From Bacteroidales bacterium (GTDB taxonomy: Bacteria > Bacteroidota > Bacteroidia > Bacteroidales > Muribaculaceae), in contig CAJTEX010000004.1 of NCBI GenBank assembly GCA_910575615.1, forward strand, positions 1-64,000: 64,000 nt of DNA, read 5' to 3'. The position numbers and the translations under genes are program-made. Under the pieces are notes generated by a model. It made no database searches. It saw only the letters and a list, made by a program, of their open reading frames with translations, and was not told where the DNA came from. Shown here one piece after another: positions 9,472 to 15,587 of the stretch; position 1 is the stretch's first letter, and each line of letters opens with the position of its first letter.

Positions 9472-9849
9472 TTAATATCCTTTCTTCTGCTCAGTATTTT
9501 TTCGTTTGGGGGTGTATTTTGCCTTGACAATTTCATATGAGCGTTTGACAAGGTCATATATCTCCGAGTCCGCAATGTCGCCGTCGAGATTGAGCTGGAT
9601 CCAGTGGCGGAGGCTCTGGTTAAGTGGCTTGCTTACAGATGAGTGCCGCATCTGTATTTCCTCAATTTCATCTGGCGTGGATTTGACTGTGACGGATGAG
9701 AAATCATCCATATCCACGAAGCAGAACATATGGTCAAGAATGTAAAAGACCAATATAGAGTCGAAACGGCGGGCAAACTTCCCGAATGGATTCTTCTCGG
9801 TCACATCTCCCATTGAAAGACAATATTCACGGAAATGCTCGATGTTCAT
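9472..9849 (-). CDS. MmcQ/YjbR family protein
   Basis: 125 residues from the ATG at 9849 (MNIEHFREYCLSMGDVTEKN). The upstream start at 9945 would overlap the preceding gene and adds a Cys/His-rich stretch that looks non-coding. YjbR-type proteins are small with a double-wing-like fold. Diagnostic pieces are the opening helix and PFGKFARRFDSILVFYILDHMF, then SLRHWIQLNLDG and DLVKRSYEIVKAKYTPK. The family role is unclear and the DNA-binding label is historical. Confidence 0.8.
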   Translation of the reverse strand: MNIEHFREYCLSMGDVTEKNPFGKFARRFDSILVFYILDHMFCFVDMDDFSSVTVKSTPDEIEEIQMRHSSVSKPLNQSLRHWIQLNLDGDIADSEIYDLVKRSYEIVKAKYTPKRKNTEQKKGY

Positions 9850-9935
9850 ATCCTTGATTTGTTGATGATTGCAATGGCTGCGTCGACAAACATTGCAGGT
9901 ATGACTGTCTTCATATGCCAGATGTGGCGCCTTGA

Positions 9936-10478
9936 TTATTGCCACCCATTGGATTTTCTCAGTTGTGCTATTTTTGATTTTGTATGCCGGAATGCGCTCG
10001 TCAGCCCTGGCGACAAGGTCTGGTATCGCATCATATCAAGATGTCTTTCCAGCTCGGTAATCAACTCCGGGAAATGTCGACACATTTTGTACGCAGCATA
10101 TATGCTGAAACATCTGATAGAGCATGATTCACATTCTGAGTTGATTTTCGACAAACAATAGTCGAGGAAATCGGTTCTCACATCCTCCTCACAGTATTCC
10201 TGTTCTCTCAGCAACTGGAGAAGCATGCGTTTTTTACCCGTGTCAGTCTCGACCAACAGCATGTCGATCATTTCATCACGCAAAGGCAAAAGCAATTTTG
10301 CATCAGTTGCCGGCAGATGGGTCATTGACCAAAGCGCGTTCACACACGTCATCCTGTCCTCCGACCGCGCCAGAGACCAAAGTATGGCTATGTTTTCCTG
10401 TGAACCTGAAGCCCATGAAGCCACACTCTTGATTTCCGGCATATTAATCCGCTTCGACAATGACTCTTGGATATTCAT
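9936..10478 (-). CDS. Helical repeat (HEAT-like) protein, function unknown
   Basis: 180 residues from the ATG at 10478 (MNIQESLSKRINMPEIKSV). It starts 8 nt after the META-domain gene ends, so the two are likely co-transcribed. The sequence is almost all amphipathic helix, with repeated patterns such as NIAILWSLARSEDRMTCVNA and KKRMLLQLLREQEYCEEDV that resemble HEAT/ARM-type repeats. There is no catalytic motif or signal peptide. A scaffold or binding protein is plausible but unproven. Confidence 0.6.
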   Translation of the reverse strand: MNIQESLSKRINMPEIKSVASWASGSQENIAILWSLARSEDRMTCVNALWSMTHLPATDAKLLLPLRDEMIDMLLVETDTGKKRMLLQLLREQEYCEEDVRTDFLDYCLSKINSECESCSIRCFSIYAAYKMCRHFPELITELERHLDMMRYQTLSPGLTSAFRHTKSKIAQLRKSNGWQ

Positions 10479-10485
10479 CCCGGCG

Positions 10486-10968
10486 TTACTCCTCTTCTGA
10501 CGTCTTGCGAAGTACGATATATTCCGACGGGTTACGGCTGTCAAGACGAGCGATTGAATCGTTCTCGATGTATACAGTGGCGATATTCGGAAGAATTTTA
10601 CGAAGGGCATCTTCTGTCGCCATATTGTCACAGGCCATTTCTGTCATGGCTCCGTCTCCCAGTGTTATGGAGTCGCCTTTGATTGAAAAAGCCCCAGAGA
10701 AAGTATTGCAGTTAGTGTGTATATGGTATGTGCTGTCCTCGAAGACGATATACTGACACACGCCAGGGACTTCATCAGAGGGACGCACATAGTCGGAGTC
10801 ACTGAATACTATGTTCTCCAGATTCCACTGGCCTTTGATGTCGGCATACGCTGCGACATCCTGAGCCATGCTCTCGTTTGTGACAGCGGTTTCGTTTTTG
10901 TTGCCAGAGCATGACATTGCGCCAATGGCAGCAAATGCAATCAGGCAAAGTTTGATTTCGGGTTTCAT
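10486..10968 (-). CDS. META-domain lipoprotein
   Basis: 160 residues from the ATG at 10968. MKPEIKLCLIAFAAIGAMSC is a lipoprotein signal ending in a lipobox (AMSC), so the mature protein is probably lipid-anchored at the membrane. The remainder, from GQWNLENIVF through NTFSGAFSIKGDSITLGDGAMTEMAC, has the META/HslJ pattern (a conserved C-N-x-F-x-G core followed by T-x-x-A/M-C). HslJ-like domains are linked to stress resistance, but the precise function is unknown. An upstream inverted repeat (11004-11012 with 11034-11042) may form a hairpin in the leader. Confidence 0.75.
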   Translation of the reverse strand: MKPEIKLCLIAFAAIGAMSCSGNKNETAVTNESMAQDVAAYADIKGQWNLENIVFSDSDYVRPSDEVPGVCQYIVFEDSTYHIHTNCNTFSGAFSIKGDSITLGDGAMTEMACDNMATEDALRKILPNIATVYIENDSIARLDSRNPSEYIVLRKTSEEE

Positions 10969-11076
10969 TGTAGAATTGTTTGTCTTTTGTCTGAGTCTTG
11001 AATGCCAATCTCGACATATCGGCAATCATTCTGGAGATTGGCCGAACTTGTGAATTGACATATATGACAGAATTTA

Positions 11077-11165: not shown

Positions 11166-11429
11166 TCATTTAACGGTTGATGCGGGAACAGTGGCGGGAG
11201 TGGGAGCCACGGGGACGGCCGAGGGGGTGATGGGCTGGAACTTTGCTTCCCATCCGAGTGCGCTCGCACCAAGGACCGCAGCATCAGCCTCTTTCAGCTC
11301 GGAAAGAAGCACCTTCACTTTGCCTTTCCAGATGGGCATCATGTTCTTTTCCATTGATTCGCGCAGTGGCTTCATCAGCAACTCGCCACTTTTTGCGAGG
11401 CCACCGAAGAGGATGAATGCCTCGGGCGC
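11166..11429 (-). pseudogene. ROK-family sugar kinase, C-terminal fragment (IS-interrupted)
   Basis: Reading the minus strand from the insertion point gives APEAFILFGGLAKSGELLMK and then a normal ROK C-terminus (ADAAVLGASALGWEAK), followed by an Ala/Pro/Val-rich tail of about 23 residues. It continues the reading frame of the N-terminal fragment at 12773-13553. Bases 11420-11429 are one copy of the 10-bp target duplication. As it stands the fragment has no proper start and is probably not translated. Confidence 0.92.
11420..11429. repeat. Target site duplication, left copy
   Basis: CCTCGGGCGC, identical to 12773-12782 on the other side of the insertion sequence. The perfect match of both copies indicates a recent insertion. 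Confidence 0.95.
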
Positions 11430-11617
11430 CAGGGCAACCGCATCAAAATTATGTGTGATAAGTAACGGTTGCTTTGAGTCAACGATGATATATGTTGGCG
11501 AAATTCTTTGAATCCAGCATATCCGAAGTCATAATTCTTAGTAATTTTATAGCACAAAAAATGGATAATTGTCTGATTTTTAGTGCTGTAATAATTGTGC
11601 ATCTCATATGTTTTTAG

Positions 11618-11625
11618 TATCTTTG
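11618..11625 (+). promoter_or_regulatory. -7 box inside the insertion sequence
   Basis: TATCTTTG matches TAnnTTTG. Transcription would begin around 11632, after the TTG codon at 11629 but before the ATG at 11659. This argues for the ATG as the transposase start. Confidence 0.5.
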
Positions 11626-11658
11626 TAATTGAAAATCAACAATATAGATACTGAGGCT

Positions 11659-12759
11659 ATGCTGAACGAAATCTTTATGACAGTACCGGATCATCGAGTT
11701 ACAGGTCGTTGCACGTATGCACTTTCCGACCTTTTGACAATCGCTTTGCTGACCTATATCTGCGGAGGCGAGGATTATGTTGACATGAGCGAGTTCGCCT
11801 ATTATCGGGCACGTGATTTTGGTCTTATTGCCGACCGTCCTGACCGCAGCCCGTCACCTGACACTTTCGAGCGGCTGATGAGCGCCGTGGATCCCGATGA
11901 GATTGAGAGATGTCTGGTTGAGCATGGCAGGAAGTTCCTTGACACGCTTGCTGAGAAGCAGGTTGTCATAGATGGCAAAAAGCTCAGAGGCACATCGCCT
12001 AAACAGCATTGCTCGAAAGGCGATTATATCATGAACGCCTATGTCAGCGAGAATCACATTGTGGTAGGACAGCAGCGTCTCAAAGACAAGGAAAATGAAA
12101 TAGTCGCCATACCTCAGCTTCTTGAAAAACTGGATATCGAAGGTGCCACAATCTCGATAGATGCGATTGGCACACAGATTAATATCGCTCAGAATATCCT
12201 TGACCGGAAAGCTCATTACTTCCTTGCCGTCAAGGACAATCAGGGCGCTCTGAACGAACAGGTAATCGATGCATTCCGCTACAATAAGCCCACAGACTCG
12301 GCTTCGCAGATGGATGCCGACCACGGACGTATAGAGACACGCGATTGCCGGATACTCAAAGCCGATACAATCGAAGACAAGGATGTGTTGGCTCGTTGGC
12401 CTGGACTGAAAACATTGGTAGAGGTCACTTCCACGGTTGACTATGGGGACCACACGGCAACTGCCGTCAGAAGGTACATCAGTGACGAGGTTTATCCTAA
12501 GGCTGCGTACTTCAATATGCTGGCTCGAGGGCATTGGTCTATCGAGAATCAACTGCATTGGAATCTTGATGTGACATTCCTCGAAGATGCCTGCCGTGCA
12601 AGGAAAGGGTATGCGTCACTAAACCTCTCGACAATCAGGAAGTTGGCCATGCAGGTTATAAAAGAGCATGTTGACAAAAGCAGTCTAAAGAAAAGGCGCT
12701 TCAAAGCGAGCCTTTCCAACGACTATTTGACCGATATGCTGCTTAAAGCCAAATTTTGA
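11659..12759 (+). CDS. ISAs1-family (H-repeat-type) transposase
   Basis: 366 residues from the ATG at 11659. A TTG at 11629 would add ten residues, but it lies upstream of the transcript start predicted from the -7 box. It is a DDE transposase: the N-terminal ALSDLLTIALLTYICGGEDY is typical of ISAs1, and the acidic residues lie in VIDGKKLRGT, ISIDAIGTQ and GHWSIENQLHWNLDVTF (catalytic Glu region). No frameshift or premature stop is seen. The stop codon lies inside the right inverted repeat. Confidence 0.95.
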   Translation: MLNEIFMTVPDHRVTGRCTYALSDLLTIALLTYICGGEDYVDMSEFAYYRARDFGLIADRPDRSPSPDTFERLMSAVDPDEIERCLVEHGRKFLDTLAEKQVVIDGKKLRGTSPKQHCSKGDYIMNAYVSENHIVVGQQRLKDKENEIVAIPQLLEKLDIEGATISIDAIGTQINIAQNILDRKAHYFLAVKDNQGALNEQVIDAFRYNKPTDSASQMDADHGRIETRDCRILKADTIEDKDVLARWPGLKTLVEVTSTVDYGDHTATAVRRYISDEVYPKAAYFNMLARGHWSIENQLHWNLDVTFLEDACRARKGYASLNLSTIRKLAMQVIKEHVDKSSLKKRRFKASLSNDYLTDMLLKAKF

Positions 12760-12772
12760 TGCGGTTGCCCTG

Positions 12773-12782
12773 CCTCGGGCGC
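12773..12782. repeat. Target site duplication, right copy
   Basis: CCTCGGGCGC, identical to 11420-11429. Confidence 0.95.
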
Positions 12783-13553
12783 TGAGAAGATGGTGAAATC
12801 TGCCAAGGCAGCGCCGAGAATGTCGCCGGTGAATTCAAACACATCCTTGGCGAGCTTGTCGCCAGCGATGGCTGCGTCATACACATCTTTCGAGGTGATT
12901 TCATCGGTGGGCATATTGCGCAGCAGGGAGGGCTCGTTGCTGCGGGCTTCAAGAAATTCGCGTGCAGTACGGGCCACGCCGGTAGCGGAGCAATAGGTCT
13001 CCAGGCAGCCGTTGCGTCCGCAGCCGCAGAGACGGCCGTTGTTGCGCTTCACAATAAGGTGGCCAAGCTCTCCGGCGAATCCGTCATGGCCATAGACGAG
13101 CTGCCCGTTGATGACAACGCCTGAGCCGACCCCGGTTCCGAGTGTTATCATTATGAAGTCTTTTAGGCCACGGGCCGAACCATATGTCATTTCACCGATG
13201 GCGGCAGCGTTGGCATCGTTGGTGATTGACACGGGAACGCCGAACTTCTCGCTCACGAGCTGTGCCAAGGGTATCGGGGTGGGCCAGGGGAGGTTGACAC
13301 CGCTCTCGATTGTGCCGGTGTAATAATTGGCGTTGGGCGCGCCGATTCCGATGCCATGGATTTTATCCACTGCGTCGTTCACTTCGATAAGCTTGGTGAG
13401 TTCGGTGTGAAGCTCGTCAAGATATGCCTCGATGGTATTGTGCTTGCGGGTCTTGATAGAGGAGCTGGCGATGACAACGCCGCGGGCATCCACGATGCCG
13501 AAGACGGTGTTGGTGCCGCCTATGTCGATTCCGACTACATAAGGTTTGCTCAT
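12773..13553 (-). pseudogene. ROK-family sugar kinase, N-terminal fragment (IS-interrupted)
   Basis: From the ATG at 13553, MSKPYVVGIDIGGTNTVFGI carries the phosphate-binding DIGGTNT motif. Next come GIGIGAPNANYYTGTIESGV, NDANAAAIGEM, LGTGVGSGVV and the zinc motif CGCGRNGC of ROK glucokinases. Family members phosphorylate glucose or related sugars at C6. After FSAPEAG the frame runs into the insertion sequence and ends with about 13 foreign residues, so the last quarter, including GGLAKSGE, is lost. Host and IS sequence together encode a 276-residue product that is probably inactive. The MFS transporter upstream on the same strand may have been its sugar-uptake partner. Confidence 0.93.
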
Positions 13554-13868: not shown

Positions 13869-15587
13869 TTATTCCTCAGCGGTTGCCACTTCTGATTCAA
13901 GGACCGCTGTTTCATCACCCTTGATGTTGGGCTCTTCAAGACCAAGGCCCTTCTTGCGGTCTATTACCTTGAGGACGAGACCAAGCAGCAGGGCGGCCAC
14001 ACCGAGGAACGCCAGCATCACTAGCGGCCAGGTGTAGTTGTAGCTGATGGCGGCTGTCTCGGGAGACATTGTGCCGTTGGCCAGGGCCTCTGTAATCTTC
14101 GGGTTGGTGTTGTCAAGCACCTTGCCGATAAGAAGCGGGAAGAGCCAGAGGCCGATATTCTGAATCCAGAAAATCAGGGCATAGGCCGAACCTATGATTT
14201 TGGCGTCTACGAGCTTGGGCACACTGGGCCAGAGGGATGCCGGAACCAGGGAGAATGATGCGCCCAGCACCAGGATTGTCACATATGCCACGCAGACACC
14301 AGCCAGGTCATTCCCTTTGAACATCGGCAGGATGAATGCGAATGTCAGATGGCACGCTATAAGCAATATTGACCCAAGCACAAGCATCGAGGCCGCTTTA
14401 CCTTTGTAATCGACAAACTTGCCGAGAATGGGGGTGATGCCGACCGCCAGGAGGGGGAACACGGCGAAGATTGCGGCTGCCGACTGGCGCATGTATCCCA
14501 TCACGCAATAGCCTACAAGGGAGATGATGGCGATCGCCAGGGTGGAGTATCGTACAACCTTGTTTTTGGAGAAGTTGCTTGCAAAAGCTGCAGCTGCTAC
14601 CACAAGCATTATGACATACTGAAGAACCGTCACGGTGTCAGTTGCCCAGAACGATGCGCTGTCGGGAGGGGTCAGCGTCAGGTTGCACTGGAGCATATTT
14701 ACGGCATATTTCTGGAAGGGGAAGATGGCTGAGTAATAAAGCACGCAAAGGAGTGCTACAAGCCAGAACCCTGCGCTGGTAAGGATTTTGCCAAGGTCGC
14801 TTATCTTGAAAGGATCATCCTTTTCCTCCTCGGCATGTGTCTGCTCGTCGAGTTTCTTGTCCATGAAGAAATAAACGATGAACATAATCAAGGCAATCAT
14901 AAGCAGCACGACTCCGAATGCCACCGAGCGGGCTACGCTCACATGGCCGCCAAGTTCAGCGAACATCGGGGAGAATATCATACAGGTGGCCACTCCAAGA
15001 CGGGCGAGGGCCATTTCCGAACCCATCGCCAAGGCCATCTCGCGGCCCTTGAACCATTTCACGATTCCTCGGCTCACCGTTATGCCGGCCATTTCCACTC
15101 CGCAGCCGAATATCATGAAGCCGACAGCCGAGAACTTGGCCGACGCGGGCATCCCTTCATAGAAAGGGGAGATGCCAAGTTCGTCGAAAACAGGAATATA
15201 GTTGAGATGGTTGGTGAACCATACGTCAAGCGAACTTCCCAGGAAGGCATCTGTGAGGGCATACCAGTTGATTGTCGCACCGACAAGCATCACAGCTCCC
15301 GAGAGAATGGCTGTGAACCTGACACCCATCTTGTCGAGGATGATTCCGGCGAAGATCAGGAAGAAGATGAATACATTGAGGAATGTCTCTGAGCCTTGCA
15401 TCGTGCCGAACGCGGTCGAGTCCCATCCTCTGGTCGACTGCAAGAGGTCTTTGATAGGCGACAAGATGTCCATAAAAATGTAAGAGCAGAACATCGCAAA
15501 AGCGAGCAGCCCCAAGGCGGTCCAGCGAGCCCAGCTCTTATCACTGAGAACGGCTTTTGTTTTGTTCAATTCAGTGGAAATTGCCAT
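13869..15587 (-). CDS. Major facilitator superfamily transporter
   Basis: 572 residues, longer than the usual 400-450, with twelve or more hydrophobic helices. The first begins at about residue 22 (WTALGLLAFAMFCSYIFMDI). The loop after TM2 has the MFS pattern (GIILDKMGVRF, an expected G-x-x-x-D-x-x-G-x-R). Charged loops occur near residues 235-260 (MDKKLDEQTHAEEEKDD), and the C-terminal tail is Glu-rich. The substrate is not evident. The ROK-family sugar kinase downstream on the same strand suggests sugar uptake, which is inference only. The gene has its own -7 box and lies downstream of the channel gene without overlap. Confidence 0.85.
   Translation of the reverse strand: MAISTELNKTKAVLSDKSWARWTALGLLAFAMFCSYIFMDILSPIKDLLQSTRGWDSTAFGTMQGSETFLNVFIFFLIFAGIILDKMGVRFTAILSGAVMLVGATINWYALTDAFLGSSLDVWFTNHLNYIPVFDELGISPFYEGMPASAKFSAVGFMIFGCGVEMAGITVSRGIVKWFKGREMALAMGSEMALARLGVATCMIFSPMFAELGGHVSVARSVAFGVVLLMIALIMFIVYFFMDKKLDEQTHAEEEKDDPFKISDLGKILTSAGFWLVALLCVLYYSAIFPFQKYAVNMLQCNLTLTPPDSASFWATDTVTVLQYVIMLVVAAAAFASNFSKNKVVRYSTLAIAIISLVGYCVMGYMRQSAAAIFAVFPLLAVGITPILGKFVDYKGKAASMLVLGSILLIACHLTFAFILPMFKGNDLAGVCVAYVTILVLGASFSLVPASLWPSVPKLVDAKIIGSAYALIFWIQNIGLWLFPLLIGKVLDNTNPKITEALANGTMSPETAAISYNYTWPLVMLAFLGVAALLLGLVLKVIDRKKGLGLEEPNIKGDETAVLESEVATAEE

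Follow-up and report, generated by a model that had tools for sequence, protein, structure and literature searches.

A sugar kinase gene recently interrupted by an ISAs1-family insertion sequence in a Muribaculaceae genome

Insertion sequences of the ISAs1 family duplicate 8–10 bp of their target. A literature search for this family in Bacteroidales turned up nothing specific. For the ROK-family sugar kinase described here, the best solved relatives are two ROK glucokinases (PDB 2qm1 and 3vgk), with which the joined protein aligns over residues 6–317; the present gene differs in being interrupted, and is glucokinase-like as judged from its sequence alone. In Bacteroidales, RokA of Bacteroides fragilis is a broad-specificity ROK sugar kinase (PMC10017367), and may serve as a model for the function lost here, the likeness being drawn at the level of kinase type.

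The window, that is, the whole stretch of DNA analysed (64,000 nucleotides), contains an insertion sequence of 1343 bp at 11430–12772 (plus strand). Its terminal inverted repeats of 21 nt (11430–11450, plus strand, and 12752–12772, minus strand) are 100% complementary. A perfect 10-bp direct repeat, CCTCGGGCGC, lies flush with this inverted pair on both sides of the element, the left copy of the target-site duplication at 11420–11429 and the right copy at 12773–12782. The length, the perfect ends and the perfect duplication given in the initial annotation are thus all exact. Across the 64 kb the arms of the element are the sole perfect 21-nt inverted pair with a spacing of ≤5 kb which, together with the flush 10-bp repeat, excludes chance.

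The single long gene of the element encodes a transposase in an intact frame (11659–12759, plus strand), of 366 aa if read from an ATG or 376 aa if read from a TTG further upstream (11629), and its stop codon is inside the right inverted repeat. The protein matches NF033564, the NCBIfam profile for the ISAs1 family, with 287.9 bits (E = 9e-86, profile positions 2–314 of 314) against a cut-off of 70 bits, confirming the proposed family assignment, and it also matches PF13808 and PF01609. In its transposase family, its one long transposase gene, its 21-bp terminal inverted repeats, its length and its target duplication of 10 bp, within the range of 8–10 bp, the element resembles the ISAs1 family, with no difference of note.

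The gene split by the element is on the minus strand, running from 13553 down to 11166 including the stop codon. Its 5′ part (12773–13553) comprises ∼260 codons and continues for 16 codons inside the element to a stop at 12723, giving a 276-aa ORF, while the 3′ part (11166–11429) comprises the last ∼84 codons and the stop. When the flanks were joined in silico and a single repeat was retained, one open frame of 344 codons without a stop resulted, as had been predicted for removal of the element, with the duplicated target at codons 258–261. For the 3′ part in this joined frame, the genome search gave 97% identity over residues 255–344 of the joined protein. Compared with the uninterrupted genes of relatives, the two fragments align as one protein; the opposite outcome had been named as counting against the reading. 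The proposed ROK identity is borne out by a PF00480 match to the N-terminal part (E = 2.4e-52), and the joined protein contains CGCGRNGCLE, which fits the cysteine motif CxCGxxGCxE. The score against TIGR00744, 197.5, was obtained with the N-terminal part alone and is below the cut-off of 260.35.

The account we favour, with a probability of about 0.92, is that a multicopy ISAs1 element recently inserted into the kinase gene with a 10-bp duplication, and that the kinase is likely inactive. An ISAs1-family DDE-transposase element, multicopy in this Muribaculaceae genome, would have transposed into codons 258–261 of the ROK-family glucokinase-like gene, duplicating 10 bp of target, and the kinase would have lost its last ∼84 residues, among them the FGG segment and some of the ROK fold. 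Since the missing residues are part of the fold over which the solved glucokinases align, the interrupted kinase is most likely inactive. A return to the intact gene may be possible in principle; it would require the element to be cut out precisely, together with one repeat.

It is improbable that the truncated 276-residue protein still works and that the insertion is close to neutral. The sugar-binding half and the cysteine motif CGCGRNGC do survive in the N-terminal 260 residues; however, the solved structures align as far as residue 317, and the 64 core codons that were lost, which are no longer translatable as part of the kinase, show 0 nonsynonymous and 30 synonymous differences from the gene of one of the nearest species (locus L045).

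Next to the kinase on its upstream side, and likewise on the minus strand, is an MFS transporter gene (13869–15587; 572 aa, PF07690). The initial annotation had connected this neighbour with a change in sugar use; the adjacency stands, but the transporter is not a conserved partner: of 80 related loci, 3 (L045–L047) have it next to the kinase, some of the 80 being cut by contig ends. At L048, L050, L052 and L082 the position is taken by other genes that differ from each other. The substrate of the kinase therefore cannot be read from this neighbour, and the link was discarded as a pointer to function. In the window, a stretch of ∼1.6 kb (9472–11025) with three small minus-strand genes separates the PGK gene from the kinase. 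Since these two genes are immediate neighbours in L045 and L046, this stretch is, by gene order, an insertion or rearrangement specific to the window lineage.

The genome has another ROK gene, encoding a 371-aa protein on contig C11 that is close to the solved structure 3mcp (named glucokinase) and may give partial back-up. Hexokinase profiles were uninformative: neither PF00349 in the window's own genome nor PF03727 in the genus found a match, and control genomes also gave none. On contig C31 (C31:3806–4021; L146:2307–2522) there is a decayed relic from the N-terminal part of another ROK kinase gene, with 64% identity over residues 2–73 and its start region damaged. It lies just downstream of a beta-glucosidase-like gene, and the sequence after the relic resembles a stretch of contig C29. 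The relic was not found in six other genomes tested. There is a slim chance that the loss is adaptive and has recurred. In that case silencing of an almost invariant ROK kinase would benefit this strain, or perhaps just part of its population, and the C31 relic, the remains of a second gene of this kinase type, would be another case.

The recent insertion that we favour was compared with related loci. The kinase is carried at 80 loci from other genomes, many of them Muribaculaceae or Bacteroidales, and is in one unbroken piece in 11 of the 13 other genomes of the genus. Both exceptions, G010 and G013, are incomplete genomes. G013 (88% complete) gave a distant ROK match only, and the split kinase of G010 was rejected as a second disruption because both pieces run to contig ends. 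When the three nearest relatives were aligned, each showed the target site once, with the element absent. Alignment with relatives lacking the element, the check first proposed for this locus, thus found uninterrupted genes and no fixed insertion with decayed flanks.

The kinase protein is 99% identical to those of the two nearest species (L045 and L046), with synonymous sites near saturation (dS >1 and dN 0 to 0.007 over the core). Within 321 core codons, no amino-acid change is specific to the window genome: at T50A and S205G it is L045 alone that differs from the window and L046, and at I56L it is L046 that differs from the window and L045. Apart from these sites, the sole differing region is the variable tail past residue 321, which varies among intact relatives too. 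Judged by this comparison between species and by the absence of decay, the insertion is recent on the substitution clock of the kinase gene, because the protein is so nearly identical although synonymous sites approach saturation, and has no window-specific change in its core. The empty site in the nearest relatives and the intact state of both kinase halves agree with the recent date first suggested. An old insertion, fixed in the lineage, is highly unlikely: no point in its support was found, the genomes of the nearest species are without the element, and neither fragment has decayed.

Against L045 and L046 the kinase has a dN/dS ratio of ∼0.005 or less; constraint this strong is unusual for a sugar kinase that apparently stands alone and has unconserved neighbours. 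The nearby MFS and PGK genes have a dN of 0.006 each against L045, so the constraint on the kinase is shared by genes around it.

The search for other copies of the element in the same genome, also proposed at the outset, found a left end at the end of contig C34, right ends at the ends of contigs C2 and C3, and three truncated relics on C29 (∼196 bp), C5 (121 bp) and C8 (28 bp). The flanks on C34 and C2 have GGGGATTAA in common, 9 of the 10 bases that a duplication would have, pointing to one more copy bridging the two contigs. The several copies and the intact transposase frame would suggest present transposition activity. On C5 (C5:120397–120518; L011:1501–1621), the left-end relic abuts an apparent other insertion sequence (end ATTACTGTCCGCTAAAC) and the remainder of the element is absent. 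The 28-bp right-end copy on C8 (C8:66190–66217; L007:1501–1528) stands alone upstream of an OmpA-like gene, with no remainder of the element, and may be a relic or else mark the end of a distant relative. Since the assembly is a draft, the internal sequence of the element in the window may be a consensus of copies.

Element-related DNA was found in 15 of 297 genomes of the family, the window's own included. G101, a single-contig genome from another genus, has two identical copies that match the element at 98.07% identity, both of them bordered by a perfect 10-bp duplication; within the window's own genus, only one of the 13 other genomes, G007, shows a relative (73% identity). Arrival by horizontal transfer would be the natural reading. 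Plasmids gave no match to the element, viral contigs held no relative of it, and phage records gave transposases only, at ∼35% identity or less.

A misjoin of a repeat copy into an intact kinase gene was rejected as very improbable: although the element is repeated in a draft genome in which other contigs break inside it, a misjoin would leave no perfect 10-bp target duplication right at the two ends, and the sequences on either side belong to the same gene in a single reading frame.

The core reading of an element inserted in a kinase gene is real and correct, and the event is an ordinary one, involving a common type of element and of low novelty. It illustrates clearly how an insertion can cost an uncultured gut lineage a gene. 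Loss of the kinase would probably cost fitness, because its amino acids hardly change between the nearest species although synonymous sites approach saturation, and the interrupted allele could be used to follow, in a gut population, how selection acts on a newly arisen knockout.
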